Below are positions 5,240-35,983 of a stretch of 53,797 nucleotides of DNA, in pieces (the first letter of the stretch is position 1; every line of letters begins with the position of its first letter). The stretch is from the NCBI GenBank assembly GCA_017519405.1, contig JAFWSH010000011.1, positions 1 to 53,797 of the forward strand, in the 5' to 3' direction. This DNA is from Clostridia bacterium (GTDB lineage: Bacteria > Bacillota > Clostridia > Christensenellales > Aristaeellaceae). The translations under genes and the position numbers were made by a program. Below the pieces are notes generated by a model that saw only the letters and a program-made list of their open reading frames with translations, was not told the DNA's origin and did not search any database.

Positions 5240-7546
5240 ATGCGGCAAGTCCGGCTGTCGGTCCGGGAGCTGGTGGAGTTCACCTGCCGGGGAGAGGACA
5301 TTGTCAGCGGTCTCTCCGCCCTGCGGGACATGCAGGAGGGGGTTCTGGGCCACAAGGCCAGGCAGGAGCGCCTGGCGCCGCCCTGGGAGGCGGAGGTGCC
5401 CCTGACGCTGACCCTGCCGCTGGATGAAGAGGAGGAGCTGCGCCTCAGCGGGCGGATGGATGTCTTCTGCCCCGGGGAGACGCCGGTGATCGAGGAGATC
5501 AAGCTGTGGCAGGGGAAAACACCGCCCCCGGAGGCAGTCCCCGCCCACCGGGCCCAGGCGGTGATCTACGGCCACATGCTCTGCCTGCGGGACAGCCTCC
5601 CCCGGGTGGAGGTCCGGGTGGTGTATGTGGACCGCAGCGGCGGCGTGCTGGCGGCCTTCCCGGAGACCATGACGGCGGAGGCGTGCGCCGCGGTGTTTGA
5701 CAGCTTCCGGGAGCCCTGGCTCAGACGCAGGGAGAGGCTGAAAGCCCACGCAGACCGGCGGGATACGTCGCTGAGACACCTGGGTTTCCCCTTCGGCGCC
5801 TGGCGGCCGGGACAGCGGGAGCTGGCGGCCCGGGTCTACACGGCGGTGCGGCAGGGCCTGCGGCTGTTTGCCCAGATGCCCACCGGAACGGGCAAGTCCG
5901 CGGCCACGCTGTTTCCGGCGCTGAAAGCCATGGGGGAGGGCTGGACGGAGCAGATCTTCTGCCTCACGGCCCGCACCACCCAGCGCCTCAGCCCGCTGGA
6001 CACCCTGGCCCGGCTGCGGGAACAGCCCCTGTGCCTCTGGACGCTGGTGCTGGACGCGAAGGACCGGCAGTGCCCGGAGAAAACCCTGTGCCATCCCGAC
6101 TGGTGCCCCCGGGCCAAGGGGCACTTCCTCCGGGACGCGGCGGCGCTGGAGGAGATGCTGAGCCGGGAGGACTGGACGCCGGAGGTCATCCGGGAGGTGG
6201 CGGACCGGCACTGCATCTGCCCCTTCGAGTTCAGCCTCAGCCTGTGCGAGCTGGCGGATGTAGTCATCTGCGACTACAACTACGCCCTGGATCCGGTGGT
6301 GCATATCCAGCGCGTCTTTGACAAGGCCAAGCCTGTGACGCTGCTCATCGATGAGGCCCACAACCTGCCGGACCGGGTGCGGGCCATGCTCTCCGGGAGC
6401 CTCGACGGCGAGGCGCTGCGGCGGATGCGGGCGGCAGTGGGCCGGGAGGCCGGCCGGAGTCACCCCCTGTGGAAGGCCATGGGCAAGGTGGTGAAAGCAC
6501 TGGAGACGATCCCCGGGGAGGGGGAGCAGGAGGGGACGCTGCCGGCTGTGCCGGAGGCGCTGATGGCAGCGGTGAACGACCTGCTGGAGGCCTGGACAGA
6601 CAGCGGCCGCACACCCCTGCGGACGGAGGGCCTGGCGGAGTTCATGGGGGAGGTGGCGGGCTTCCGGCGGGCCTGGCGGGGCGACACCCCCGGTGCGGTG
6701 TTCTGGCAGGGGAGCAGGCACCCCCGGCTCACGGTGATGGCGCTGGATATCGCGGCCTATTTCGCGGAGGTGACCCGGGGCAAGCGCGGCACGGTCTGCT
6801 TCTCGGCAACCTTGACGCCGCTGGACCGGATGAAGACCCTCCTGGGCGGGGATCCGGAGGACGGGTGCTATACGGGCCCCTCCAGCTTTCCGCCGGAGCA
6901 CCTGTTGCTGCTGCGCAAGCGGATCGACACCCGCTACAGCCGCCGGGAGGCCGCGGCACCCGCCCTGGCGGAGGCCATTGAGACCATGGTCCGGGCGCAC
7001 CCGGGCCACTATCTGGCCTACTTCCCCAGCTATGCCTTCATGACCCGGGTGGCGGAGCTCTTAACCGTGCCCTATGTGATGCAGACCCGCTCCATGGACA
7101 TTGCCCAGCGGGCGGCCTTTCTGCAGCCGTTCCGGGCGGATGCGCCGCCCTGTCTGGGGCTGTGCGTGCTGGGCGGGGTGTTTGCCGAGGGGATTGACCT
7201 GCCGGGGGAGGCCCTGGACGGGGTAGCCGTGGCGGGGATCGGTCTGCCCCAGGTGGGCATCGAGCGGGAGACGCTGCGGGCCTGGTTTGACAAGAACGGG
7301 CTGGACGGCTTCCTCTACGCCTACCAGATGCCCGGCCTGCAGAAAGTGGCCCAGGCCGTGGGCCGGGTGATCCGGACGGAGACGGACCGGGGCGTGGCCC
7401 TGCTGCTGGATGACCGCTACGGACGGAGGGACTGCGTGGCCCTCTGCCCGTCCCACTGGCGGATGGAGGACGGCGACGCGGCGGAAATGCTGGCGGCGTT
7501 CTGGCAGCGTACGGATGCGACGACGAAGACAGAGAAGGACGGATGA
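5240..7546 (+). CDS. Nuclease-helicase fusion of the XPD/DinG type (PD-(D/E)XK plus iron-sulfur helicase)
   Basis: The protein has 768 residues. The N-terminal 180 look like a PD-(D/E)XK (RecB/Cas4-like) nuclease: GRMDVF (about 72-77), EEIKLWQGK (85-93) and QAVIYGHML (104-112, the QxxxY motif). An XPD/DinG-like superfamily 2 helicase follows, with Walker A PTGTGKS (about 214-220), motif II DEAH (about 370) in LLIDEAHNLPDR, a cysteine cluster between them (C278, C284, C288 and CICPF) that fits a 4Fe-4S site, and the C-terminal motif QAVGRVIR. It probably processes DNA during repair. No CRISPR or phage genes are near. It has its own promoter and overlaps the next gene by 4 bases. Confidence 0.87.
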   Translation: MRQVRLSVRELVEFTCRGEDIVSGLSALRDMQEGVLGHKARQERLAPPWEAEVPLTLTLPLDEEEELRLSGRMDVFCPGETPVIEEIKLWQGKTPPPEAVPAHRAQAVIYGHMLCLRDSLPRVEVRVVYVDRSGGVLAAFPETMTAEACAAVFDSFREPWLRRRERLKAHADRRDTSLRHLGFPFGAWRPGQRELAARVYTAVRQGLRLFAQMPTGTGKSAATLFPALKAMGEGWTEQIFCLTARTTQRLSPLDTLARLREQPLCLWTLVLDAKDRQCPEKTLCHPDWCPRAKGHFLRDAAALEEMLSREDWTPEVIREVADRHCICPFEFSLSLCELADVVICDYNYALDPVVHIQRVFDKAKPVTLLIDEAHNLPDRVRAMLSGSLDGEALRRMRAAVGREAGRSHPLWKAMGKVVKALETIPGEGEQEGTLPAVPEALMAAVNDLLEAWTDSGRTPLRTEGLAEFMGEVAGFRRAWRGDTPGAVFWQGSRHPRLTVMALDIAAYFAEVTRGKRGTVCFSATLTPLDRMKTLLGGDPEDGCYTGPSSFPPEHLLLLRKRIDTRYSRREAAAPALAEAIETMVRAHPGHYLAYFPSYAFMTRVAELLTVPYVMQTRSMDIAQRAAFLQPFRADAPPCLGLCVLGGVFAEGIDLPGEALDGVAVAGIGLPQVGIERETLRAWFDKNGLDGFLYAYQMPGLQKVAQAVGRVIRTETDRGVALLLDDRYGRRDCVALCPSHWRMEDGDAAEMLAAFWQRTDATTKTEKDG

Positions 7547-22897: not shown

Positions 22898-25800
22898 TCA
22901 GGGTGTGATATGGGGGAGGGCGGCGATGGCCGTGGTCTCGGGGGCCTGCAGGCCGGCGGTGGCTTCAGGGGGAAGGGCGCCGCTCCCGCCATACAGGAAG
23001 TACTGCGGTGTGGCGATGAGCGCGTTCCCTTCCTGGGTCAGCGTGACCCGGACGATGTACTGCAGGTCCGAGTAGATGATGTCCGTGGCGCTTCCCTTCT
23101 CCTCATACACGACATAGAAGAAGACGGCATTCCCGTCGGTATCCCGGTACGGTGCGCTCAGTGCCCCCTCCGTGTCATAGTCCAGGCTGAAGTTGAAGGT
23201 CACTTCCTTGTTTTCCTTGCCCGCCGGATTGTTGATGACCTGCAGGGCGGATCCGCGCTCCCCGCTGATATCGATGGGCTGGAGCACGAAGGCGAACTCG
23301 TTGGCCTTCATGTCACGGCCTCGGAGGGTCTTTTTGACGGGGATGGGCAGCTCTGCCTCCAGGGGCGTGTTGACCACGTTATAGCGGAAGGTGATGGATG
23401 CCTGGGCATGCGTGACATAGCCGCTGTCCGGAATGGTCTCGGTGGTGCCCTCGCTTTCGTCCGTCACCAGGAGCTTCACGCCCTGGTTCCAGTTGAAGGG
23501 GTAGGTCTTGCCGGACAGCGCGTTCCCTTCCAGGTCGGTGTATCGCCCGTTCTCCGCCTGCATGGTCACGGTCCGGACGGTGGTGTCTGCGGCGTAGTAC
23601 CGCGGGGGCGTGGTCTCGATGAGGTAATAGGTTTCCTCCAGCACCATCTCAAAGTCCTTGGTGCTGTCACTGCTGTCCTTCAGGCGGGCGAGGCCGTCGG
23701 CGCCGGAGGTGGCCGTGGCCACCTCAACATATTTCCTGGTGCTGTCCAGACCCTCGACGGCAGTGCCGCCATCGTCCTCCTGATACAGCCTGAAAGCGGC
23801 GCCGGAGAGGGGCGTGCCGTCCGGATCCGTCTTGACGGCCTCCAGGGGGACCGTGTACACGTTGATCACATGCTCGTTGGTGGAGGCCTCACGGCCGGTG
23901 GCGTGGCCCTGATACATCGTGCCGAAGGTGCCGGTGTGGAAGTCCTCCGTGCTCTGGCCGCCCTGGCCGATGGGGGTGACGGTATAATCCGGCTCATAGG
24001 CGACGCGGAGCACGTACTTCTCCACCTCGTTCCCCGTGACCGTGGTCGCGTGGGGGGATTCGTTGACCAGATCGGACTCCTCGCCCTCGACGACCGTTTT
24101 CTCCAGGGTGAGCTTGATGCGGCTGTTGTCCGTCAGGCCGAACTCGTGGTAGGGCAGGGTGATGCCGTCCCCCATCATGTCCTCGAGGAAGGCGTCCCAG
24201 TTGAGCTCGCTGCCCGTGAAGTAGCGCGCCGTCTTGTCCGGATCTTGGCGGATCAGGCGCTCGATGAGGTCGGGGAGGGAGAAGGTGGCGGCTGTGCCGG
24301 TGGCCGCGCCCCAGCGCTCGTCGATGCTGTTCGGGCTGGACGTGAAGTGCAGGCTCGCATCCTCGTTCACCACCTGCTCCACGACGAGGCCGTCGTAGAG
24401 GGCACGCAGCTGCTGCTTCGGATCCACCTCCTCGCCGAGGCAGACCGTCCATTCGGTCTCGCTGCTGAAGAAGGTCAGCTCGTTGACGTTCACCCGGGGG
24501 GTGGGGAGCTCCGCGGTGAGGTTCAGGGTGTCGCGCACGAGGGTGGTGTCGAAGGGGATGTCCTCTCCGCCCACCCGGTAGTTTTTCGCGACGATGGTCG
24601 CCTCATCGTTGTTGGTGTTCATGCCGTTGCCGCCCAGCAGCTCCTCCTGGGCTTTCACATAGACGGTCCCGTGCCAGCCGGCTACCGCGTCGATGGCCTG
24701 GTTTGACCACAGCACGGTCCGGCCGTCGTCCTGCACCACGCCGGCTGCCCGGCTGGGGTCGGTGGTCCGGTTGCCGTCGATGTCGATCATGTCCCGGGGC
24801 GCCAGGGGCCGGCCGGTGGCCTTGTCCACCAGGTAGAAGCCCTCGCCCACCGTGTCCGACACATCGCCCATCACCACGGCGTCCTCCATCAGGACCTTGG
24901 TGATCTGGCGGAAGATGTTGTGCAGGTCGCTGCCGCTCTCCGCCATGTAGAACATCTTGTTGCCCTTGCTGTCCGTGTCCGCCAGGTCGTAGAGCAGGCG
25001 CTTGCCGGAGGTGACGTTCTCCATGCTCAGGCCGACGGTGATGATCTTCACATGCGAGTTGTTCTTCAGGTTCCGCGCGGCGGTGCGGACCCAGCCCTCG
25101 ATATCGGCGTTCGTCGTGCCCTTCGGCTCGCCGGTCCGCACGCCCTGGGGCGCGCCGTCCGTGACCAGGATGACATAGCGGTCCGTGGAAACCAGGTTTC
25201 CGCTGCCGTCGAGGGTGTAATCCGCCGTCCAGGAGAAGTTCTGCGCGTCGGCGAAGGCCTGGTCCGGGCGCGTGCCGCCGCCGCTGGCATAATGCAGATT
25301 GACCGTCAGGCCGGAGGATGCCGGGATGAAGTCCTGTCTCTGATTGCCCAGCTCCTTGTTGAACGTGTTGTAGGCGATCCGCACGCCGGGGCTGGCGTCG
25401 CCCGCCACGGCCAGCAGCCCGGAGATGACGTTCAGGTCGGAGGAGCTGCCGCTCAGGGCCTGGTTCAGGTAGACGAACCGGTTTCTGTTGTTGTCGCCGG
25501 CGTTGTAGATCGTGTAGACCGTGTTGTCCGTGTCATTGAACCCGAAGGGGTGATTGCCGGTGTTCGCGCCCTTTGTCCAGTTGGTCTCAAAGTTGGTGCC
25601 GATCACAAAGGATTTATCGCTTTCCGTCGTTCTGGAGGCGTCCTGCGCTTTCCAGTTTCCGTCCTGGTAATAGATCTTGAATACCGTCGCTGTGCCGGAG
25701 GCGTCCGCGATCAGGTAGTAGGGGTTGTTCCAGCCCCTGCTCCGGTCCAGCCAGCCCCGGTTATCCCAGCCCCAGCCGCTGTTGTTGATCTGGTAAATGG

Positions 25801-28126
25801 GCATCGGATTGGCTCTGTTGGTGTCCGCCTCCACCAGGGCGGAGGGGAAGTACATGGAGTTGGACACGTCCAGGCAGAAGGCCATGTCCAGGTTGCCGGC
25901 GAAGGTCTCGAAGTTGGCCCGGGAGGTGATGTCCACCCGGTAGATCCGGTTCTGGTAGTCATAGACCTCGGCGGTCTTCTGCGTGGCGCTGCTGTCCAGC
26001 GGGATGTTGCGGTTCTGCAGTCCGTTGAGCCAGCCGGTCATATCCGCGATGGAAGAGGGGACTTTTTCGTGCTCCGGGACCTCGTAGGCCGGATTCTGGC
26101 TGAAGTAGGCTACCAGGTTGCTGCCGTTGTAGGGGATGGTCAGCGTGTTGGCCGGGATGGTGGCGGGATACTGATCCCGGTCCAGGGGCTGGCCGTCCAG
26201 CTCCCAGTGGTCAAACAGCCATTTGTTTCTGCCGCCGGTGTCCGGGTGGTACACCGGGGTGGCCGTGATGGTTCCGGCGTTCTTCTTGTCCGCCGTGGAG
26301 GTCGCGTCGCAATAGTGCGCGACGACGATGCCGCCCTCGACGATCTCCTGCTGCGTGCCGCCGTCGACGGTCACCGTACCGCGGACCTCGTCCTCGGAGC
26401 GGACGAGGTAGTCGTAGGCGGGCAGGCTGGCCATCTCGTAGATGCGGACCGTGACGCCCTCGCCGTCCACGCCGGCAAAGGCGCCGCCGGCAAAGCCCAG
26501 GTGGATATAGCGGGGGTCGGCCTCGGTGCCGACGTTGTGGTAGCCCTCCAGGATGAAGCCGCTGCCGCTCTGGATCACGGCGACGTTGTTGTTCCCCTGC
26601 TGCACGAGGGGCTGGCCGGCGAAGTTCAGGGTGAGGGTCCGTGCCTTGTTGTCGATGGGACGGATCAGGTAGTAGTTCTTGTCCAGGTGGTGCTCCACAT
26701 CCTGCTCCTTGAAGATGTGGCCGAAGCTCCAGGCGTAGGTGCTGTTCAGGTGCTCGAAATCGTGGGCCGGATCCGGGTCCCCGTCAAAGTTCGGGTGATA
26801 GGCGCTGTCCACGGTTCCGTCATTCTTGAGCAGATAATACGTATTGCCCACCTGATAGCAGATCAGATAGCTCTTGTTGGGGTTCAGCGTGCCCTCCTCC
26901 GCATCGGGGATGGCCTGGGCGTCCGTCACCTTCACCGTCATGACGTCGCCGCCCTTCATGGTGATGGTGAGCGTCTCCTCGCTCAGGAAGGGCTTCAGGC
27001 TGATGAGCAGCCACTCCCCGGCGGCCACGGGGGTGTCGTTGATGGCGGCGATCTGCGCTTCGGTGAGCTCTGCGCTGTACTCGCAGTGAAGGCCGTTGGC
27101 GGCCTTCACCTGGCCGACGGTGCCGGCCTCCCCGGCCTGCCCGACCCAGACCAGGCTGGGATCGGAGAAGGCCACGCTGTCGATGCCGGTCAGGAAACGG
27201 TCCATCTCCTGCCCGTCCTCCGAGCGGATGCCCAGGGCCTCCATCAGCTGCCGGAGGGGGATAAAGCCGCCGCCCGGGAGGCTGAATTCAAACACCTGAC
27301 CGTTCAGGTCGTACACAAAATCCACCGTATAGACCAGGGCAAAGCCGGAGAAGGACGTCGTGGAGAAATGCAGCCCGGTGATCTGGCCGTTCTCCGTCTC
27401 CACCTCCACCGGAAGCTCCTCCACCTCCGCCCCGCTGACCACGTGGTACAGCCGGGCGTCCCGGACGACGGTGCGGCCGGTCAGACCGTTCAGCGCAGGC
27501 GCCGCGGGCAATTCGATGCGGGTGTTGACGGACACCTCCGCGCCGGTGTGGACCTCCGCGCCTTCAGGGGACCTCAGGCCGATCTCCAGCCAGACGACAG
27601 ACGTGTCGCTCCCGGCAGGGACGGCCGCCCGCTGCTGCTCCGACGGCTCAAAGGTGCCCACAAACAGCCCGGTTCCGGCGGGGACTTCGCCGGAGGCGGT
27701 GAAACTGCCGCTGTCCCCGGTGACCTCCGTGCCGGCGGGAATGGCCGGCGTCTCGCCGGGGTTGTGAAGGAGAAAGACATGGGTCCCGAAATTGGTGGTG
27801 ACGGTCAGCCGCACGGTGTCAAAGGAGGCGACCGCCGTCAGATACAGGTCGTCGCTCAGCGTCACGGCATCACTATCCGTCACCGCGCTGATCACGATCC
27901 CGTAGATGCCGTGGAGACCCAGCAGATACGGCAGGAGGACAGCGTCCCCCGTGCCGGAAAAGCTGTACTCCCCGGTCACTTCTCCCACAGGCGGATGCCA
28001 CCAGTCGCTGTGGTAGGGCTGCCGTTCGGCGAAATCATCCTCCGCCCCCAGGGAACTGGGCAGCAAAACCATCATGACGGTCAGGAGCACCGCAATGATT
28101 CGTCTCAGCCCTGCGCTCCGCTTCAT
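22898..28126 (-). CDS. Large secreted protein with VWA, SpaA-like and Spy0128-like domains
   Basis: The product has 1742 residues counted from the ATG at 28126, which gives a proper signal peptide (MKRSAGLRRIIAVLLTVMM, cleavage near LGAED) and is preceded by GAGGTGA; the open frame runs to a GTG at 28219 without a ribosome site. Residues 30-730 are beta-rich with no family I can name. A von Willebrand A domain follows, with MIDAS DVSNSM (about 753) and VTDGAP (about 990). A SpaA/Cna_B-like domain starts near 1425 (EAVKTDPDGTPLSGAAFRLY) and a Spy0128/FctA-like domain near 1594 (PVKKTLRG). Such modules carry isopeptide bonds in pilins. There is no LPxTG signal or C-terminal membrane helix: it ends in AALPHITP. 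It is probably an adhesin. Confidence 0.85.
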   Translation of the reverse strand: MKRSAGLRRIIAVLLTVMMVLLPSSLGAEDDFAERQPYHSDWWHPPVGEVTGEYSFSGTGDAVLLPYLLGLHGIYGIVISAVTDSDAVTLSDDLYLTAVASFDTVRLTVTTNFGTHVFLLHNPGETPAIPAGTEVTGDSGSFTASGEVPAGTGLFVGTFEPSEQQRAAVPAGSDTSVVWLEIGLRSPEGAEVHTGAEVSVNTRIELPAAPALNGLTGRTVVRDARLYHVVSGAEVEELPVEVETENGQITGLHFSTTSFSGFALVYTVDFVYDLNGQVFEFSLPGGGFIPLRQLMEALGIRSEDGQEMDRFLTGIDSVAFSDPSLVWVGQAGEAGTVGQVKAANGLHCEYSAELTEAQIAAINDTPVAAGEWLLISLKPFLSEETLTITMKGGDVMTVKVTDAQAIPDAEEGTLNPNKSYLICYQVGNTYYLLKNDGTVDSAYHPNFDGDPDPAHDFEHLNSTYAWSFGHIFKEQDVEHHLDKNYYLIRPIDNKARTLTLNFAGQPLVQQGNNNVAVIQSGSGFILEGYHNVGTEADPRYIHLGFAGGAFAGVDGEGVTVRIYEMASLPAYDYLVRSEDEVRGTVTVDGGTQQEIVEGGIVVAHYCDATSTADKKNAGTITATPVYHPDTGGRNKWLFDHWELDGQPLDRDQYPATIPANTLTIPYNGSNLVAYFSQNPAYEVPEHEKVPSSIADMTGWLNGLQNRNIPLDSSATQKTAEVYDYQNRIYRVDITSRANFETFAGNLDMAFCLDVSNSMYFPSALVEADTNRANPMPIYQINNSGWGWDNRGWLDRSRGWNNPYYLIADASGTATVFKIYYQDGNWKAQDASRTTESDKSFVIGTNFETNWTKGANTGNHPFGFNDTDNTVYTIYNAGDNNRNRFVYLNQALSGSSSDLNVISGLLAVAGDASPGVRIAYNTFNKELGNQRQDFIPASSGLTVNLHYASGGGTRPDQAFADAQNFSWTADYTLDGSGNLVSTDRYVILVTDGAPQGVRTGEPKGTTNADIEGWVRTAARNLKNNSHVKIITVGLSMENVTSGKRLLYDLADTDSKGNKMFYMAESGSDLHNIFRQITKVLMEDAVVMGDVSDTVGEGFYLVDKATGRPLAPRDMIDIDGNRTTDPSRAAGVVQDDGRTVLWSNQAIDAVAGWHGTVYVKAQEELLGGNGMNTNNDEATIVAKNYRVGGEDIPFDTTLVRDTLNLTAELPTPRVNVNELTFFSSETEWTVCLGEEVDPKQQLRALYDGLVVEQVVNEDASLHFTSSPNSIDERWGAATGTAATFSLPDLIERLIRQDPDKTARYFTGSELNWDAFLEDMMGDGITLPYHEFGLTDNSRIKLTLEKTVVEGEESDLVNESPHATTVTGNEVEKYVLRVAYEPDYTVTPIGQGGQSTEDFHTGTFGTMYQGHATGREASTNEHVINVYTVPLEAVKTDPDGTPLSGAAFRLYQEDDGGTAVEGLDSTRKYVEVATATSGADGLARLKDSSDSTKDFEMVLEETYYLIETTPPRYYAADTTVRTVTMQAENGRYTDLEGNALSGKTYPFNWNQGVKLLVTDESEGTTETIPDSGYVTHAQASITFRYNVVNTPLEAELPIPVKKTLRGRDMKANEFAFVLQPIDISGERGSALQVINNPAGKENKEVTFNFSLDYDTEGALSAPYRDTDGNAVFFYVVYEEKGSATDIIYSDLQYIVRVTLTQEGNALIATPQYFLYGGSGALPPEATAGLQAPETTAIAALPHITP

Positions 28127-28256
28127 GAGATCGGTCACCTCGCTCGTTGCTTCTGAGTCGGGCCTTCCGGGCTCCGTCTGTTTCGATCCGGGCCCGGAAA
28201 GCGTATTGCGCCGTATCACGCCCGCCGGCCGGATGCCGCCGGGCAGGGGAGGGGCA

Positions 28257-29930
28257 TTATGCCGCCGGTGTCCTGTACACCGTCACGCGCCAGCTGTAAT
28301 CCTTGTTCTCCTCCGAGTAGGTATACACCAGCGTGGGGCTGTGTTCCCCCTCCACGGTGAAGATCGTCCGGCCGCCGTCGGGGGAGTACTCCCAGACAAT
28401 CACCGCGTCCGGGTCCTCCACGGAGAACGCGGCGGTGAGGGTCACGGTGGTGCCATAGCACAGCTCGCCCTCAAAGGAGGCGGACATCACAACATCGAAG
28501 GGGTCGTCCGCGGGGGCTGCGGTGTCCTCGGGAGCGGGGGCTTCCTCCACAGGCTCCTCGGTGGGCTCGGCCGGAGTTTCCGCCACGGGCTCCTCGGTGG
28601 GCTCGGCCGGAGCTTCCTCGACAGGTTCCTCGGTGGGCTCGGCCGGAGCTTCCTCCACGGGTTCCTCAGTGGGCTCGGCCGGAGTTTCCGCCACGGGCTC
28701 CTCGATGGGCTCGGCCGGAGTTTCCGCCACGGGCTCCTCCGTGGGCTCGGCGGGAGTTTCCGCCACGGGCTCCTCGATGGGCTCGGCCGGAGTTTCCTCC
28801 ACAGGCTCCTCGGTGGACTCGGCGGGAGCTTCCTCCACAGGCTCCTCAGTGGGCTCGGCCGGAGTTTCCTCCACGGGCTCCTCGGTGGATTCGGCCGGAG
28901 CTTCCGCCACGGGCTCCTCAGTGGGCTCGGCCGGAGCTTCCTCTACAGGCTCCTCGGTGGATTCGGCCGGGGCTTCCTCCACGGGCTCCTCCGTGGGCTC
29001 GGCCGGAGCTTCCTCCACGGGCTCCTCGGTGGGCTCGGCCGGGGCTTCCTGCACGGGCTCCTCCGTGGGCTCGGCCGGGGCTTCCTCCACGGGCTCCTCC
29101 GTGGGCTCGGCCGCAGGCAGCCTGACCACAATCACCACGTCGTAGATGGTCAGGTCAGTGATGCTGAAACTGACCACATTCCCGCTGACGACGGCGTTGA
29201 TCTGCTTTGCCCGGTCCGCCGGTTTCTCCGCCTCAGCCCGGTAGGCGTAGACGGAGACGGTGATCCCGGCCCCGGGGTATTGGCTCTCCATCTCGGCAAT
29301 CCGCGGATCCTTGACCCGGATCTGGGCGGCTCCGGCGATTTCGGCGCCCGAAAAACGGATCATCCTGTGAAGGACGATGTCGCCTTCCTGCGCTTTGCAG
29401 ACAGCCTGCACCGCCTGCAGGAAGGCTTCCGCGTTGGCCTCGGCAATCATCAGACAGATGCCCGGCGCCACCACGCCGGCCGGGGCTGTCACGGTGATGA
29501 GGGTGCTTCCCATCTGCTCACGCTGCTCGAAGGGGGCGGCGGGCACCTCCGCAGGGACGGGCTCCTCCGCAGGCTCCTCCACGGGCGCTTCCGCAGGCTC
29601 CTCCACGGGCGCTTCCGCAGGGGCAGGCTCCTCCGCGGGCTCCTCCGCAGGCTCCTCCACGGGCGTTTCCGCAAGGGCAGGCTCCTCCGCGGGCTCCTCA
29701 GCAGGCTCCTCCGCCGGCGCTTCCACGGACACAGGCACTTCCGCCGGTGCTTCCGCAAGGGCAGGCTCCTCCGCGGGCGCTTCCACGGGCACAGACGCTT
29801 CCGCAGGCGCTTCCACGGGGGCAGGCTGCTCTGTCCCGCCCTCCTCCGCAAAGACAGCGATGTGCGCCGCGAAAAACAGCATCACAAATGCCAGCATCAA
29901 GGCGCTCGTTTTTTTCAGATATGCTCTCAT
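28257..29930 (-). CDS. Secreted protein with sixteen 12-residue Glu/Pro repeats
   Basis: The 557-residue product has a signal peptide (about 1-28, MRAYLKKTSALMLAFVMLFF with an AVFAEE cleavage region). An Ala/Pro/Glu low-complexity stretch (30-130) precedes a globular segment (about 135-270). Then come sixteen tandem 12-mers of consensus EPTEEPVEEAPA (about 275-466), and a C-terminal beta domain (about 485-557: GTTVTLTAAFSVEDPDA, IVWEYSPDGG) resembling a bacterial Ig-like fold. No cell-wall signal or membrane anchor is seen. The rod-like acidic repeats suggest a spacer in a surface protein. It starts behind a GGGGGG-rich site and lies 130 bases upstream of the large VWA protein, so the two are probably one transcript. 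Confidence 0.82.
   Translation of the reverse strand: MRAYLKKTSALMLAFVMLFFAAHIAVFAEEGGTEQPAPVEAPAEASVPVEAPAEEPALAEAPAEVPVSVEAPAEEPAEEPAEEPALAETPVEEPAEEPAEEPAPAEAPVEEPAEAPVEEPAEEPVPAEVPAAPFEQREQMGSTLITVTAPAGVVAPGICLMIAEANAEAFLQAVQAVCKAQEGDIVLHRMIRFSGAEIAGAAQIRVKDPRIAEMESQYPGAGITVSVYAYRAEAEKPADRAKQINAVVSGNVVSFSITDLTIYDVVIVVRLPAAEPTEEPVEEAPAEPTEEPVQEAPAEPTEEPVEEAPAEPTEEPVEEAPAESTEEPVEEAPAEPTEEPVAEAPAESTEEPVEETPAEPTEEPVEEAPAESTEEPVEETPAEPIEEPVAETPAEPTEEPVAETPAEPIEEPVAETPAEPTEEPVEEAPAEPTEEPVEEAPAEPTEEPVAETPAEPTEEPVEEAPAPEDTAAPADDPFDVVMSASFEGELCYGTTVTLTAAFSVEDPDAVIVWEYSPDGGRTIFTVEGEHSPTLVYTYSEENKDYSWRVTVYRTPAA
28533..29108 (-). repeat. 36-nt tandem repeat, 16 copies
   Basis: Sixteen uninterrupted 36-base units encode EPTEEPVEEAPA with changes at residue 2 (P/S), 3 (T/I), 8 (E/Q/A) and 10 (A/T). 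The variants are patterned: the TPA form clusters in units 9-12, which points to block duplication. Because the unit is a multiple of three, copy number change alters length without breaking the frame. Confidence 0.95.
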
Positions 29931-30156: not shown

Positions 30157-30197
30157 ATGTGGCAGTGTACAAAAACCGGCGGAAGGAGGGGATACCC

Positions 30198-30824
30198 GTG
30201 CCGGAGAGCTTCGCGGAGAAGCTTCGGCGGCTTCGGGCCGAAAAAGGCATCACCCAGCAGCAGCTGGCCTCCATGATGTATATCGACCGCTCCAGCATCG
30301 CCCGGTGGGAAAACGGACTTCGGGTGCCGGATCTGGTGCTGCTGCAGCGGCTGGCCCACTGCCTGGGCGTCGAGGTTTCGCTCCTGGTCCCGGGCGAGGA
30401 CCTGTCCCGGGATACGCTGACGGTCATCATTGTGGATGACGAGCCGCCCATCCTGGCCGGTGGCCTGGAGACGCTGTGCCGGGCGATGCCGGGCGCGGAG
30501 ATCACCGGCTTCACCAAACCCAGGGAGGCGCTGGAGTTTGCGCTGAACAACCGCATCGACCTGGCTTTCCTGGACATTGAGATGGGAAAGACCAGCGGTT
30601 TTGAGCTGTGCGAAAAGCTGCTGGCCATAAACCCGGCCACCAGCGTTGTCTATCTGACCGCCTTCCCGAACTATGCGCTGAAGGCATGGGAGACCGGCGC
30701 CAAGGGCTTCATGGTCAAGCCGCTGGACGTGCAGGATGTGATCCGGCAGCTGGAACGGCTGAAGATCAGCCTGCCCGCGCAAAACAGCCAGGGAAAAGCC
30801 GAACGGCCGGAGGCGGGACGATGA
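30198..30824 (+). CDS. Response regulator with N-terminal XRE helix-turn-helix and C-terminal receiver domain
   Basis: The 208-residue protein starts at GTG 30198, 8 bases after AAGGAGG. Residues 4-60 are an XRE/Cro-type helix-turn-helix (KLRRLRAEKGITQQQLAS, DRSSIARWENG). Residues 73-195 are a CheY-like receiver with the acidic pair Asp80-Asp81, phosphoacceptor Asp126 in LDIEM, Thr154 and Lys174. Most response regulators have the receiver first and use winged-helix, LuxR or LytTR output domains, so this reversed order with an XRE output is unusual. The stop overlaps the kinase start by 4 bases, so the two form a two-component pair. The divergent secreted protein genes are possible targets. 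Confidence 0.9.
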   Translation: MPESFAEKLRRLRAEKGITQQQLASMMYIDRSSIARWENGLRVPDLVLLQRLAHCLGVEVSLLVPGEDLSRDTLTVIIVDDEPPILAGGLETLCRAMPGAEITGFTKPREALEFALNNRIDLAFLDIEMGKTSGFELCEKLLAINPATSVVYLTAFPNYALKAWETGAKGFMVKPLDVQDVIRQLERLKISLPAQNSQGKAERPEAGR

Positions 30825-32083
30825 TGGACTGGATGTCGCTGGCGAACCTGTGCATGGGGGCGGCCGGTCTGGCGCTCACCTCCCTGGGCCTGATCCTGGC
30901 CATCGTCTGCCGCCCGGTTGCGCACTGGACCCGCAGCTATTTCATCGCCACCTTTGCGCTGATGATTGTCTGCACAGCCGCCATCACGGCCGACTATGCT
31001 GCCCTCCTCTTTCATTGCGGCGGCCTGATCAAGCCGATGATCTTTGTGGAATCCCTGTCCGCCTCGCTGCTGATGCCCCTGCTGACGATCTACCTGCTGG
31101 GGCTGTGCAGGGAAAAATGGCGGGAGAGCCCGCTGTTCTTCGCCGTGGCCGGGCTTTGGACGGTGTTCTTCGGGCTGCTGGTGTATACGCAGTTCAGCAC
31201 CGCCATCTACTCCTTGGACGCGGAGGGCGTGTACAGCCGCGGCCCGCTGTATCCCCTGCTGCTGGTCTCCCCGGCGCTCATCATGCTGCTGAATCTCCTG
31301 GGGCTTCTCCGCAGAAGGGAAAAGCTGACTGCCCGGCAGCGCAGGGCCCTGTTTGTCTACATCCTCGCGCCGCTGGCGGCCATCGTGCTGCAGATGCTTT
31401 TTTACGGCCTGCTGCTGGTGGCCTTCGGCGCCATTATCGGCGCGTATGTGATGTTTGTATCCATCCTGTCGGAGCAGACGGCCATTGCGGTTCGCAGGAC
31501 CCGGGAGAGCGCTGAGAAGGAGTTCGGCCTGAAAGTGCTGCAGATGCGGCCGCACTTCATCTACAACGCCATGACCAGCATCTACTACCTGGTGGACACC
31601 GACCCGGAGGCGGCGAAATCCGCGATCCGGGATTTCTCCAGGTATCTGCACCAGAACTTCAGCGCCGTGGTCCGCACGGAAAACGTTCCGTTTGAGGAGG
31701 AACTGGCCCACACGCAGGCGTATCTGGCCATCGAGAAGACGCGCTTTGGGGACCGGCTGGACGTGGCCTGCGACCTGGCGGACACGGTCTTCTCCCTGCC
31801 GCCGCTGACGCTGGAGCCCATTGTGGAGAATGCCGTCAAGCACGGCATGGACCCGGACCTTGAGACGATGCACATTCTGATCCGCACCCGGGCGGTGGAG
31901 AACGGTCATGAGGTCACGGTGATCAACGACGGCGCCGCGCTGGAGCTGGCGGAGTCCGACGGCGAGGGCGTGGGCCTGAAGAACGTCAGCGACCGCCTGG
32001 CCCGGATGTGCGGCGGAAGCCTCAGCATCACCCCCCGGGACGGGGGCGGCGCGGTGGTGACCATGTGGATCCCCAAGGGATGA
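30821..32083 (+). CDS. LytS/YpdA-like membrane sensor histidine kinase
   Basis: The 420-residue protein has about seven N-terminal membrane helices (1-225) with no large extracellular loop. A His_kinase domain follows with RPHFIYN (phospho-acceptor His245) and a HATPase_c domain with EPIVENAVKHG (N box) and GVGLKNVSDRL (G box). That is the LytS/YehU class, which normally pairs with LytTR-type regulators; here the partner is the HTH-receiver protein immediately upstream, overlapping at ATGA. The 7TM sensor suggests a small membrane-soluble or membrane-embedded signal. An intrinsic terminator follows. Confidence 0.9.
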   Translation: MMDWMSLANLCMGAAGLALTSLGLILAIVCRPVAHWTRSYFIATFALMIVCTAAITADYAALLFHCGGLIKPMIFVESLSASLLMPLLTIYLLGLCREKWRESPLFFAVAGLWTVFFGLLVYTQFSTAIYSLDAEGVYSRGPLYPLLLVSPALIMLLNLLGLLRRREKLTARQRRALFVYILAPLAAIVLQMLFYGLLLVAFGAIIGAYVMFVSILSEQTAIAVRRTRESAEKEFGLKVLQMRPHFIYNAMTSIYYLVDTDPEAAKSAIRDFSRYLHQNFSAVVRTENVPFEEELAHTQAYLAIEKTRFGDRLDVACDLADTVFSLPPLTLEPIVENAVKHGMDPDLETMHILIRTRAVENGHEVTVINDGAALELAESDGEGVGLKNVSDRLARMCGGSLSITPRDGGGAVVTMWIPKG

Positions 32084-32248: not shown

Positions 32249-32277
32249 TGGGCAGGGCACGTGAAACATGCTATCAT
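32249..32277 (+). promoter_or_regulatory. Probable promoter of the HTH-HD / transporter operon
   Basis: TGGGCA (32249-32254) and TATCAT (32272-32277) are separated by 17 bases. The weak -35 would suit a regulated promoter. Confidence 0.45.
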
Positions 32278-32300
32278 CAGGCTGTACGGAGGTGGCTGAA

Positions 32301-33158
32301 ATGAGCGTTGGAAGCAACATCGCTGCGCTGCGCCGGCGAAACAGCATGACCCAGGAGCAGCTGGCGGAGAAACTGGCGGTGAGCTTCCAGGCGGTGAGCG
32401 CCTGGGAGCGGGATGAGCATCTGCCGGAATTGAGGAAGCTGGTGGCCCTGGCCCGGATTCTGGACACATCCCTGGATGCGCTGGTGGACGAAACAGAGCA
32501 TCCCTGGGAACTCAGGGACCCGAACTTTGACCCGGAGCACCAGTATACCTGGCTGAAGGCCCAGGCCCAGGGCCTCGGTCTGACGCAGACCCTGGCCGCG
32601 CTGCCGCTGATGCGGGAGAAGCACGCGGGCCAGTTCCGTAAGGGCAAGGTGGCGCACGTGCCATACTGCGTCCACCCCCTGACCCTTGCCTGCCACGCCT
32701 TTGCCATGGGGATTGGCGAGGATGACGTGCTGGCTGCCCTGCTCCTGCACGATGTGGTGGAGGACACCTGGACCCGGCCGGAGGAGCTTCCGGTGAGCGA
32801 GCGCGTGCGGGAGGCCGTGCGGTTGGTGTCCTATAACACCTACTATCCGCCGGAGGCTGGCTGTCTGTCAGCCCGGGAGGAGAAGGAGATCAAGCGGCGG
32901 ATCAAGCCGGACTACTATGCCCACATCCGGGAGAACCCCCTGGCTGCCCTGATCAAGTGCGTCGACCGGTGCAACAACCTCTCATGCATGGCCGATGGCT
33001 TTACACGGGAGAAACAGGCGGCTTACGTGGTGGAGACGGAGCGATACATCCTGCCCCTGCTGGACGTGATCAAGGCTGTGCCGGCATGGAACAGGGCAGC
33101 GTGGCTGCTGCGTTACCAGATCACGTCGCTGCTGGAGACATTCAAGAGAGTGCTGTGA
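32301..33158 (+). CDS. HTH_XRE protein fused to a SpoT-like HD (alarmone hydrolase-type) domain
   Basis: The product has 285 residues. Residues 5-60 are an XRE helix-turn-helix (IAALRRRNSMTQEQLAEKL, FQAVSAWERD). Residues 105-255 match the hydrolase domain of RelA/SpoT and small alarmone hydrolases: His125 in VHPLTLA, the pair His150-Asp151 in LLLHDVVEDT with Glu154-Asp155, and Asp222 in IKCVDRCNN. The metal-binding HxxHD-type set is complete, so (p)ppGpp or nucleotide hydrolysis is possible; no synthetase, TGS or ACT domain is present. GGAGGTGG precedes the ATG at 32301. It is 14 bases from the amino-acid transporter gene, so they form an operon. A ligand-binding rather than catalytic HD is the alternative. 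Confidence 0.85.
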   Translation: MSVGSNIAALRRRNSMTQEQLAEKLAVSFQAVSAWERDEHLPELRKLVALARILDTSLDALVDETEHPWELRDPNFDPEHQYTWLKAQAQGLGLTQTLAALPLMREKHAGQFRKGKVAHVPYCVHPLTLACHAFAMGIGEDDVLAALLLHDVVEDTWTRPEELPVSERVREAVRLVSYNTYYPPEAGCLSAREEKEIKRRIKPDYYAHIRENPLAALIKCVDRCNNLSCMADGFTREKQAAYVVETERYILPLLDVIKAVPAWNRAAWLLRYQITSLLETFKRVL

Positions 33159-33172
33159 GGAAGGGAATCGCT

Positions 33173-35983
33173 ATGAAGGTAAGAAAAGCAGGACAGAGCG
33201 GGCCCGGGAAGGAGCAGGGCAGCCCGAACGGGAACCCGGTGTTCCGGTGCGAGGTGCTGCTGGTGCTCATCCTCATCGCCGCCATCCTGGCATCGCAGCT
33301 GATCGGCACCGCCACCGTCACCGACGGGACGCAGGCCGTGGACGAAGACGGGCTTCCGACAACATCCACGACCCTGGAGGACCTGGAGGCGCCCGGGACA
33401 AGGTTCGGGGTGCTGCTCATGCCGGAGTGGGAGGATGCGGTCAGAGGACGCTTCCCCCAGGGGGAGCTGCGGCACTACCAATCCTCGGCGAATCTCTTTA
33501 CCGCCCTGGACGCCGGGGAGGTGGACGCGGCCCTGGGGTTCTTTGACGAGCGGGAGACGCTGGCGGGCACCTGGCCGAATCTTGCCTTCATCACGGAGCC
33601 CTTCGCCGCTGTGGATTTCGGCTTCGGCACCCAGAAATCCGAGAAGGGGAAGGTGCTGTGCGGGGAGCTGAACCAATACCTGCGGTCCCTTCGGGCATCC
33701 GGTGGGTATGACGCCCTCCGGGAGAAGTGGGAGAGCCCGGAGCGGGACGGGGACGTGATGGATGCCTACACCTTCACCGGCGAGCGTGGGACGCTGCGGG
33801 TGGTCACGGGCGGCCTGTGGACGCCCATGACCTTCTATCAGGGGGAGACGCTGACGGGCGAGTTTCTGGAGATCATCAACGGCTTCTGTGCCGCATACGG
33901 CTATCTGCCCGAGTACGAGACGGTGTCCTTCTCGGCTGAGTTGTCCGGGCTTGCCGCCGGCACCTACGACATCTGCGCCGATTCCATCGTCCCCACCGCG
34001 GAAAGACTGGAGAACATCTGTGTCACGGACCCCCTGATGAAGGATGAGTACTTCCTGCTGGTGCGGCGGGATGCGGCGGTAAAGGAGGTACCGAAGGCCT
34101 CCCTGTTCCTGGACGGTATCCGCAGCAGCATTCAGCGGACCTTCATCACGGAGGGCCGCTACAGGATCCTGCTCTCCGGGCTGGGCATCACCATCCTCCT
34201 CTCGGTGATTGCGGGGGTATTCGGGACCTTCCTGGGTGCGGTCATCTGTTTCCTGCGCACCCGGAGGAATCCCTGGCCTGTCGCCTTCGCCCGCATCTAT
34301 ATCCAGGTTTTCCGGTCGCTGCCCGTGGTTGTGCTGCTGCTGATCCTCAACTATATTGTGCTGCGCAGCAGCGGGCTCAGCGCCTTCTGGATCTGCGGGA
34401 TCACCTTCTCCATCGAGTTTTCCGCCTACTGCGCCGAGATCTTCCGGGGCGGCATCAGCGCTGTTCCCGCCGAACAGATGCGGGCAGCCACCGCCCTGGG
34501 CTTCGGGCGGGCCCAGGCCTTCCGGACCATCGTCTGGCCCCAGGCGCTGGTCCACTTCCTGCCGGCCTACAGCGGGCAGTTTATCGCCACGGTCAAGATG
34601 ACAGCCGTTGCCGGGTACATCTCTGTGACGGACCTGACCAAGGCGTCGGACATCATCCGCTCCAGGACGTATGAGGCTTTCTTCCCGCTGTTCTTCACCT
34701 CCCTGGTCTATTTCCTGCTGTGTGCGCTGCTGGTGGCGCTGCTGCGCGGGCTGGAGAGAAGGCTCCACCCGGAGCAGCGGTCGGTGAACAGGGCAATCCT
34801 GGAGACCGTGCAGGCCTGTCAGTCGGAGCCGTCGGCGGATCAGAGCCCCCGGGAAAAGAGCGGGAAGGAAGAGAAGGGAACCCCGCTGCTCCGGATCGAA
34901 CACCTGCGGAAAAGCTTCGGGGATGTGACCCCGGTGAAGGACGTGAGCTGCGAGATCCGCAGCGGAGACGTGGTTTCGATCATCGGCCCCTCCGGCACCG
35001 GGAAAAGCACGCTGCTGTACCTGATCAACCACCTGGAATCCTCCGACGGCGGCACCATGGTGTTTGAGGGCCGGGATACAAACGCGAAGGGCTACGATGT
35101 GAACCGCATGCGGAGAGAGATCGGCATGGTGTTCCAGTCCTTCAACCTGTTTCCCCATCTGACGGTCATCGAAAACCTGATGCTCGCCCAGACCAGGCTG
35201 CTCAAGCGCAGCGGCGAGGAAGCCTGCCGGCGGGGCATGCAGCTGCTCCAGCTGGTGGGGCTGGCGGACAAGGCCCTCAGCCTTCCCTCCCAGCTCTCCG
35301 GCGGACAGCAGCAGCGGATTGCCATCGTCCGGGCCGTTGCCATGGATCCGAAGATCCTCCTCTTTGACGAGCCCACCTCCGCCCTGGACCCCACCATGGT
35401 GGGGGAAGTGCTGACGGCCATCCGCAGGCTCGCCGAGGAGGGGATGACGATGCTGATCGTCACCCATGAGATGCGCTTTGCCAGGGATGTCTCCAGTCGC
35501 GTGTTTTTCATGGACGAGGGCATCATCTGTGAGGAGGGCACGCCGGAACAGGTTTTTGACGCGCCACGGAAGGACAAAACCCGGCAGTTCATCAACCGGC
35601 TGCGGGTCTTTGAGGCATCCCTGCACAAAAACAGCCCGGACTGCAGCGGGCTGATCAGCGGCCTGGAGCAGTTTGGCTTCCGCTACATGATCAGCCGGCG
35701 GCTCATGAACCGGATGCTGATCCTGGTGGAGGAGCTGTGCATGAACACCATCCTGCCGCTGCTGGCGGCGGATGGGGAGATCAGGCTGGTGTTTGAATAC
35801 GCGGACGCCGGCGGCGGCAGCCTCCAGCTGAAAACGGCCTATTCCGGGCCGGATCAAAACCCGCTGGAGGCGGCAGACGCCCTCTCCGGCACGCTGATCC
35901 GCCACGCCTGCCGGAATCTGGACTGGCAGTGTGAAGACGGGACCTGCCTGATCCGGGGAACGCTCCGGGCGGAGGACATGTAG
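33173..35983 (+). CDS. One-polypeptide polar amino-acid ABC transporter with C-terminal GHKL-like domain
   Basis: The single protein (936 residues) combines what are usually three or four proteins. An anchor helix (27-45) is followed by SBP_bac_3-like segments in swapped order. Residues 66-190 resemble the second lobe (TLEDLEAPGTRFGVL, AGEVDAALGF, GYDALREKWE) and 206-300 the first lobe (GTLRVVTGGLWTPMTFYQGE, TYDICADSIVPTAER). Residues 325-530 are a GlnP/HisM-like permease. Residues 572-815 are the ATPase (Walker A GPSGTGKS 605-612, LSGGQ 708-712, FDEP 731-734, His765). Residues 822-936 look like a degenerate GHKL ATPase (LVEELCMNTILP, then LIRHAC). The start at 33173 was chosen for its AGGAAGGG site. 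Polar amino acids are the likely substrate. Confidence 0.85.
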   Translation: MKVRKAGQSGPGKEQGSPNGNPVFRCEVLLVLILIAAILASQLIGTATVTDGTQAVDEDGLPTTSTTLEDLEAPGTRFGVLLMPEWEDAVRGRFPQGELRHYQSSANLFTALDAGEVDAALGFFDERETLAGTWPNLAFITEPFAAVDFGFGTQKSEKGKVLCGELNQYLRSLRASGGYDALREKWESPERDGDVMDAYTFTGERGTLRVVTGGLWTPMTFYQGETLTGEFLEIINGFCAAYGYLPEYETVSFSAELSGLAAGTYDICADSIVPTAERLENICVTDPLMKDEYFLLVRRDAAVKEVPKASLFLDGIRSSIQRTFITEGRYRILLSGLGITILLSVIAGVFGTFLGAVICFLRTRRNPWPVAFARIYIQVFRSLPVVVLLLILNYIVLRSSGLSAFWICGITFSIEFSAYCAEIFRGGISAVPAEQMRAATALGFGRAQAFRTIVWPQALVHFLPAYSGQFIATVKMTAVAGYISVTDLTKASDIIRSRTYEAFFPLFFTSLVYFLLCALLVALLRGLERRLHPEQRSVNRAILETVQACQSEPSADQSPREKSGKEEKGTPLLRIEHLRKSFGDVTPVKDVSCEIRSGDVVSIIGPSGTGKSTLLYLINHLESSDGGTMVFEGRDTNAKGYDVNRMRREIGMVFQSFNLFPHLTVIENLMLAQTRLLKRSGEEACRRGMQLLQLVGLADKALSLPSQLSGGQQQRIAIVRAVAMDPKILLFDEPTSALDPTMVGEVLTAIRRLAEEGMTMLIVTHEMRFARDVSSRVFFMDEGIICEEGTPEQVFDAPRKDKTRQFINRLRVFEASLHKNSPDCSGLISGLEQFGFRYMISRRLMNRMLILVEELCMNTILPLLAADGEIRLVFEYADAGGGSLQLKTAYSGPDQNPLEAADALSGTLIRHACRNLDWQCEDGTCLIRGTLRAEDM

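Follow-up and report, generated by a model that had tools for sequence, protein, structure and literature searches.

A single-chain importer of the GlnPQ-like kind with a circularly permuted binding domain and a predicted pseudo-GHKL tail on its ATPase

A gene at positions 33173-35983 of the window, the whole stretch of 53,797 nucleotides that was analysed, almost certainly encodes an importer on one chain, composed of an anchor helix, a circularly permuted binding domain, a permease, an ATPase and a pseudo-GHKL tail. The frame contains 936 open codons, from the ATG at 33173 to the stop at 35981-35983, and Pfam detected SBP_bac_3 (two stretches), BPD_transp_1 (residues 351-531) and ABC_tran (588-736). 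The composition given in the preliminary description, a 936-residue frame with an anchor helix, two SBP_bac_3-like segments, a permease, an ATPase and a C-terminal domain, was thereby confirmed. It had also supposed that similar chains may exist, and a search for homologues with the same domain order returned full-length orthologues (L047-L052; lobe 1 61-80%, tail 38-65% identical). Since these come from six other assemblies, the chain is no assembly accident. As in polar-amino-acid importers (PAAT, GlnPQ-like), a BPD_transp_1 permease is combined with a GlnQ-type ATPase, whose nearest group is ArtP/GlnQ and whose match spans the whole ATPase length, and the importer is a variant of this known kind. 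No lipobox was seen in the anchor region of the window chain; lipobox-like N-termini occur in some relatives. The parts of the gene are the following.

33173..35983, plus strand: whole gene, 936 codons and stop
33157..33165, plus strand: Shine-Dalgarno-like gaggaaggg, 7 nt 5' of the ATG, read directly
33254..33307, plus strand: N-terminal anchor helix, residues about 28-45, read directly from the sequence
33371..33736, plus strand: part 1 of the permuted unit, lobe 2 and the lobe-1 helices that are C-terminal in normal binding proteins, residues 67-188 (profile against solved binding proteins; predicted model)
33737..33784, plus strand: linker between the former C- and N-termini, residues 189-204, about 16 residues (predicted model)
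33785..34075, plus strand: part 2 of the permuted unit, N-terminal part of lobe 1, residues 205-301, R278 included (profile against solved binding proteins)
34223..34765, plus strand: permease BPD_transp_1, residues 351-531 (Pfam, E 2.5e-18)
34886..35596, plus strand: GlnQ-type ATPase, residues 572-808 (ABC_tran 1.1e-34; ArtP 2olj E 3.2e-81)
35597..35980, plus strand: predicted pseudo-GHKL (RsbW/SpoIIAB-like) tail, residues 809-936, 128 aa (profile, fold; ATP lid, G1 Asp, G2 glycines absent)

The lobe order of the binding domain had been described as reversed relative to normal SBP_bac_3 proteins, and this was borne out by comparison with solved structures. When each half was compared separately with the SBP_bac_3 profile, residues 67-208 gave a weak match to profile positions 45-129 (E 0.0018, 18.5 bits with a cut-off of 26.4), while residues 209-316 matched positions 3-95 clearly (7.9e-12). 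Half-unit profiles of 18 rows each, A6 for the first half and A7 for the second, were then searched against all PDB sequences. In GlnH (1ggg, 226 aa) A6 matched residues 99-222 and A7 residues 4-103; in GlnPQ (6h30) A7 was placed at 3-100 and 235-332, and A6 at 100-222 and 334-455. A6 matched 476 distinct PDB sequences, the best 60 of 476 all at their C-terminal part, and A7 matched 489, the best 60 of 489 all at their N-terminal part. The binding domain of the window belongs to type II (SBP_bac_3) and is circularly permuted, running from lobe 2 through the C-terminal lobe-1 helices and the linker to the N-terminal part of lobe 1, the reverse of the lobe order of SBP_bac_3 in PAAT importers. 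The AlphaFold2 model of the unit, based on 77 aligned units, was one compact domain (pLDDT 93.7, pTM 0.86), and its fold search against the PDB returned type II binding folds; the global scores were poor, as expected, because order-keeping aligners met a permuted chain. The ligand residues of GlnH are an Arg for the carboxylate and an Asp for the amino group. In the window R278 is kept and the amino-group position is occupied by Phe123, where 51 of the 77 rows have Asp.

In normal binding proteins both ends lie on lobe 1. In the window chain lobe 2 carries the anchor helix at its start and lobe 1 carries the permease at its end, so the reversed lobe order puts the two tethers on different lobes.

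GlnPQ-type importers are SBD1-SBD2-permease fusions (PMC8025302, in part), and the window importer resembles them in that one or more SBP_bac_3 domains per chain are fused N-terminally to the permease and the ATPase is of the GlnQ type. Unlike the unit of the window, the binding domains of GlnPQ stand in normal order, as the positions of A6 and A7 in 6h30 indicate. The ATPase of GlnPQ is a separate protein and is not known to carry a GHKL tail. A natural circular permutation is described for TpMglB-2 (Tp0684), a tethered 'Type Ic' ABC binding protein with Gram-positive homologues (PMC4990184, available in part), which differs in its type I/cluster B sugar-binding fold and its cut point; permease fusion or arrays were not seen in those parts of the paper. 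Since the window unit is of SBP_bac_3, type II, its permutation is analogous to that of 'Type Ic' proteins, in a different family. Permuted binding proteins are known for type I (TpMglB-2, PMC4990184, in part). In the open-licence PMC literature covered here, no account of a permuted type II binding protein or of a GHKL-tailed transporter was found.

The relatives were taken as the best 80 of 587 loci confirmed for the binding protein-permease part, a set biased towards the window. Within these 80 the permease frame also carried binding lobes in 79 loci, and in 76 the order was one to five permuted units followed by the permease: 31 frames read 2-1, 28 contained this unit twice, 12 three times, 3 four times and 2 five times. 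Three were irregular; those of L053 and L084 start at a contig end, and L055 reads 2-2-1. L115 has a separate 272-residue 2-1 frame, apart from the permease. The five-unit frames (L081:2577-7157 and L118:631-5280, plus strand) have 1527 and 1550 codons, i.e. ten lobes per half-transporter. A tailed ATPase frame was present in 67 of the best 80 loci (of 587), and in 19 of the 80 ATPase and tail share one chain with the permease, like those of the window. Among the 13 loci without a tailed ATPase, contig ends truncate some frames (L055, L109), and L077 is adjoined by a plain tailless ATPase of 242 aa. The genome of the window itself has a second set on contig 6, where a gene for two permuted units and permease is followed by a tailed ATPase gene.

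Record titles among the relatives include Lachnospiraceae, Treponema, Fibrobacter, Verrucomicrobia, Lentisphaeria and others, mostly MAGs whose names may be wrong. Permuted units were also seen in L086, L095, L108, L113, L116 and L122, titled Gammaproteobacteria, Janthinobacterium lividum, proteobacterium, Bacteroidales and Chlorobiaceae, which reflects horizontal transfer, binning errors or misnamed MAGs.

The association of the tail with the permuted units was measured in a set of 14 genomes, picked by the tail profile, in which 18 tailed loci were compared with the 20 best-scoring loci of tailless GlnQ-type ATPases. A permuted binding protein-permease frame lay beside the ATPase in 17/18 tailed and 1/20 tailless loci (p 1.6e-8), and a normal-order binding protein in 0/18 and 16/20, respectively. 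The tail and the permuted, permease-fused binding units belong together. An earlier set of 38 genomes gave 36/39 tailed versus 2/40 tailless loci with the permuted frame, and 12/39 versus 2/40 with partner-switching genes; it is biased, as the genomes were chosen for known loci, some of them known for partner-switching genes, and the tailed group includes those loci.

Permutation as such is wider than the tail, since stand-alone permuted binding proteins occur near tailless ATPases, e.g. in L246 and L248. Over all sets, 14 frames of 262-304 aa hold a 2-1 unit without a permease, though in L090 this frame overlaps an adjacent one and could be part of an array that was split. SBP_bac_3 frames of permuted order that lack a permease were noted at L246:4405 (plus strand), L248:7519 (minus), L247:8435 (plus) and in L167-L170, L172, L294 and L295. 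A single origin of the permutation is not favoured by a quick tree of 82 binding proteins, built on a short alignment and with long branches; in it the lobe order has to switch 9 times, and 3 or more of these switches fall on starred branches. The tree suggests that the permutation may have arisen or been reversed more than once. The idea of a permuted OpuAC in L. lactis was dropped; PMC2861598 is without 'permut', 'swap' or 'dislocation'.

The C-terminal tail had been described as residues 822-936 resembling a degenerate HATPase_c domain. The GHKL relation stood by profile and by fold; the start was found at about 809 and not at 822. In profile comparison the tail reached a probability of 98.1 with RsbW, while the controls reached at most 2.6, and the predicted model, a high-confidence fold of the GHKL type of RsbW and SpoIIAB, had UsfX, SpoIIAB and RsbW as its best PDB matches. 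In direct searches residues 813-936 had no Pfam match at E 10, the cut-off of HATPase_c_2 (PF13581) was reached neither by the window tail nor by either tail of its own genome, and the tail profile had no match among PDB sequences (best E 0.054, a nickel regulator). The suspected N box was recognised, its glutamates being kept in 67 of 70 tail rows and its Asn in the window tail, and the G1 glycine was kept in 59/70. The rest of the ATP site that RsbW-type kinases possess (N-box E and N, G1 D-x-G, lid, G2 glycines) is mostly lost over these rows: the lid and the G2 glycines are missing, the G1 aspartate is absent in 70/70, and an aromatic residue replaces the former base-binding Asp in 65/70. 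Among the folded domains the tail evolves fastest (65% identity to L047, compared with 84% for the ATPase). By its model it is a pseudo-GHKL domain of the RsbW/SpoIIAB type, conserved but with its ATP-binding parts lost. In L300 (plus strand, one-contig genome) a tail forms its own 143-residue frame (6944-7372) directly after a 258-residue tailless ATPase frame (6228-7001), which is either a separate gene or a frameshift.

The tail shares its fold, profile and N-box glutamates with the anti-sigma factors RsbW, SpoIIAB and UsfX, from which it differs by the lost ATP-site elements and by its place on the ATPase subunit of a transporter. We know of no sigma factor that is the partner of a tail of this type. 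Clustering of the neighbours of the named loci revealed proteins that join STAS to an APH-like kinase (STAS+APH), phosphatases of the SpoIIE type, RsbW proteins, and transporters of the SDF or MATE family that bear an RsbW-like domain. L102 and L123 have the order MATE with RsbW-like domain, SpoIIE, RsbW, permuted binding protein-permease, tailed ATPase, with extra frames between some of them. In L049 and L050, both with an orthologue of the window gene, a SpoIIE gene lies directly 3' and a STAS+APH gene upstream on the other strand (Pfam on L049); these are the only orthologue loci where partner-switching genes were seen, and they may count as one case. The transporters and kinases concerned are listed below.

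L090:3247-4869, L091:2443-4035, L109:266-1873, plus strand: SDF (sodium:dicarboxylate) symporters with N-terminal degenerate RsbW-like domain, near permuted importers
L125:7430-9118, L103:7608-9200, L062:7114-8937, plus strand: SDF symporters with N-terminal degenerate RsbW-like domain, near permuted importers
L299:380-2020, minus strand: SDF symporter with N-terminal degenerate RsbW-like domain, near a tailed ATPase
L102:3-1070, L123:3-1271, L143:130-1839, L147:751-1842, L301:3875-5680, plus strand: MATE transporters with C-terminal RsbW-like domain
L049:2843-4036 (minus strand), L067:2116-3327, L066:2853-4070, L119:2059-3282: STAS fused to an APH-like kinase, beside importers (L066 and L119 by similarity)
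L303:1824-3083, minus strand: STAS and APH-like kinase in the genome of the window, away from the importer

Two MATE proteins, those of L123 and L147, exceeded the HATPase_c_2 cut-off of 27.4 bits; the L125 SDF protein (25.4 bits) and the L301 MATE protein (19.1) fell short of it. The domains on the remaining SDF and MATE proteins were assigned by the profiles of this analysis or by similarity to these proteins. In L301, STAS, MATE with RsbW-like domain, SpoIIE and RsbW-like frames stand in one stretch. In the 14 tail-picked genomes STAS was near 1/18 and SpoIIE near 3/18 tailed loci. With profiles grown from seeds in the named loci, which may miss distant members in either set, a STAS, SpoIIE or RsbW gene was near 4/17 tailed and 0/20 tailless loci (p 0.036), and 13 of the 17 tailed loci had none within about 6 kb. 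With L282 included the value was 5/18; that locus was dropped, since what had been taken for an RsbW gene there is a tail truncated at the end of its contig. The linkage of tailed importers to partner-switching genes is suggestive, not strong. The profile search found no STAS, SpoIIE or RsbW match in the 53.8-kb window; elsewhere in the same genome there are a STAS-only protein on contig 28 (match 25190-25474), an RsbW on contig 22, a STAS+APH protein on contig 11 and several SpoIIE proteins, all on contigs other than that of the window.

The preliminary reading, in which the tail may regulate the ATPase, was supported, and the following mechanism is proposed. The chain would be a type I ABC importer of the polar-amino-acid kind, with all functions on one chain, acting as a homodimer. 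Its tail would serve as a non-catalytic docking domain for a partner in the cytoplasm, most probably a protein with a STAS domain from a partner-switching circuit (STAS, RsbW kinase, SpoIIE phosphatase). The docked partner could stabilise, inhibit or release the ATPase dimer, and transport would be set by the phosphorylation state of the STAS protein. We hold this mechanism as a whole, a STAS partner docking on the tail and gating ATPase and transport, only tentatively, at a little under even confidence. Binding of STAS by the tail is drawn by analogy, since canonical RsbW binds STAS as a kinase and the tail is without an ATP site.

Partner-switching folds are also known outside sigma factor control. 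In MlaFB the STAS protein MlaB sits on the ABC ATPase MlaF and is needed for its stability (PMC7367683, in part); as in the window, a partner-switching fold is attached to an ABC ATPase, but there the STAS half is added in a lipid transporter, while in the window the RsbW-like half is fused to the ATPase. In SiaABCD of Pseudomonas aeruginosa partner switching controls an output other than sigma factors (PMC8457831, PMC7647112, in part), which differs in being a diguanylate cyclase, with no transporter.

The tail might instead be a structural dimerisation module, the pair of tails holding two ATPase domains together with no signalling partner. This would agree with the known RsbW homodimer (PMC7340262, in part), with the self-dimerisation of MlaF by its C-terminal tail (PMC7367683, in part) and with the tail match directly 3' of the ATPase match in the frames of relatives. 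It accounts neither for the RsbW-like domains on transporters that lack an ATPase, those of the MATE and SDF families, nor for the nearby STAS, SpoIIE and RsbW genes, and we regard it as possible but rather unlikely.

Trans-inhibition is exerted by C-terminal domains of MetN, ModC and OpuA, and regulatory domains after importer ATPases are common. The emptied GHKL pocket could similarly bind the imported substrate or another metabolite, the conserved aromatic residue at the former base-binding Asp being part of a reshaped pocket. However, the lid which closes such a pocket is deleted, similar domains serve transporters of other families, and to our knowledge no GHKL domain is a small-molecule sensor for trans-inhibition; this role of the tail is improbable.

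On the outer side, the lobes could pair in trans, with the other chain of the dimer or with the next array unit, where the middle 1-2 of a 2-1-2-1 array stands in normal order, and no permuted domain would fold. Against this stand the single 2-1 unit in 31 of the 79 permease frames (best 80 of 587 loci), the 14 permease-free 2-1 frames, the one possible split array included, and the compact prediction of the unit, which make trans pairing very improbable. That the tail is a functionless, decaying relic of an anti-sigma factor fusion is highly improbable, since its fast evolution and lost ATP motifs are outweighed by its presence in 67 of the best 80 loci (of 587), with the same replacements in most rows, and by its high-confidence predicted fold.

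Two features travel together in this importer family: binding-domain lobes that are reordered and joined in arrays, and a tail of anti-sigma type on the ATPase. Partner switching is known chiefly as a means of gene control; if STAS proteins do dock on the tail, as the preferred mechanism assumes, it would also control nutrient uptake directly. Whether the position of hinge and tether matters when substrate is delivered to the permease can be tested on the permuted units. In a wider and doubtful extension, pseudo-RsbW might be a general transport control module in anaerobes, found with ABC importers bearing permuted arrays, MATE and SDF proteins; the STAS/RsbW/SpoIIE circuit would switch the transporters themselves, the transporter taking the classical place of the sigma factor, and the redesign would include, as its outer half, the doubly tethered permuted arrays of one to five units.

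In the window itself a gene for an HTH_3 protein with a sub-threshold HD_4 match (32268-33158, plus strand) ends 14 nt 5' of the importer gene on the same strand, and the two perhaps form one operon. In frame lists judged on the first 40 residues no relative of it was seen beside L048-L052; L047 is cut by its contig. Further upstream, at 30159-32083 (plus strand), there is a response regulator with an N-terminal HTH_3, the next frame being a His_kinase/HATPase_c sensor. The region 22898-29930 (minus strand) holds a 557-residue frame rich in Glu/Pro/Ala repeats, with no Pfam match at E 0.001, and a 1773-residue frame with SpaA and FctA domains.
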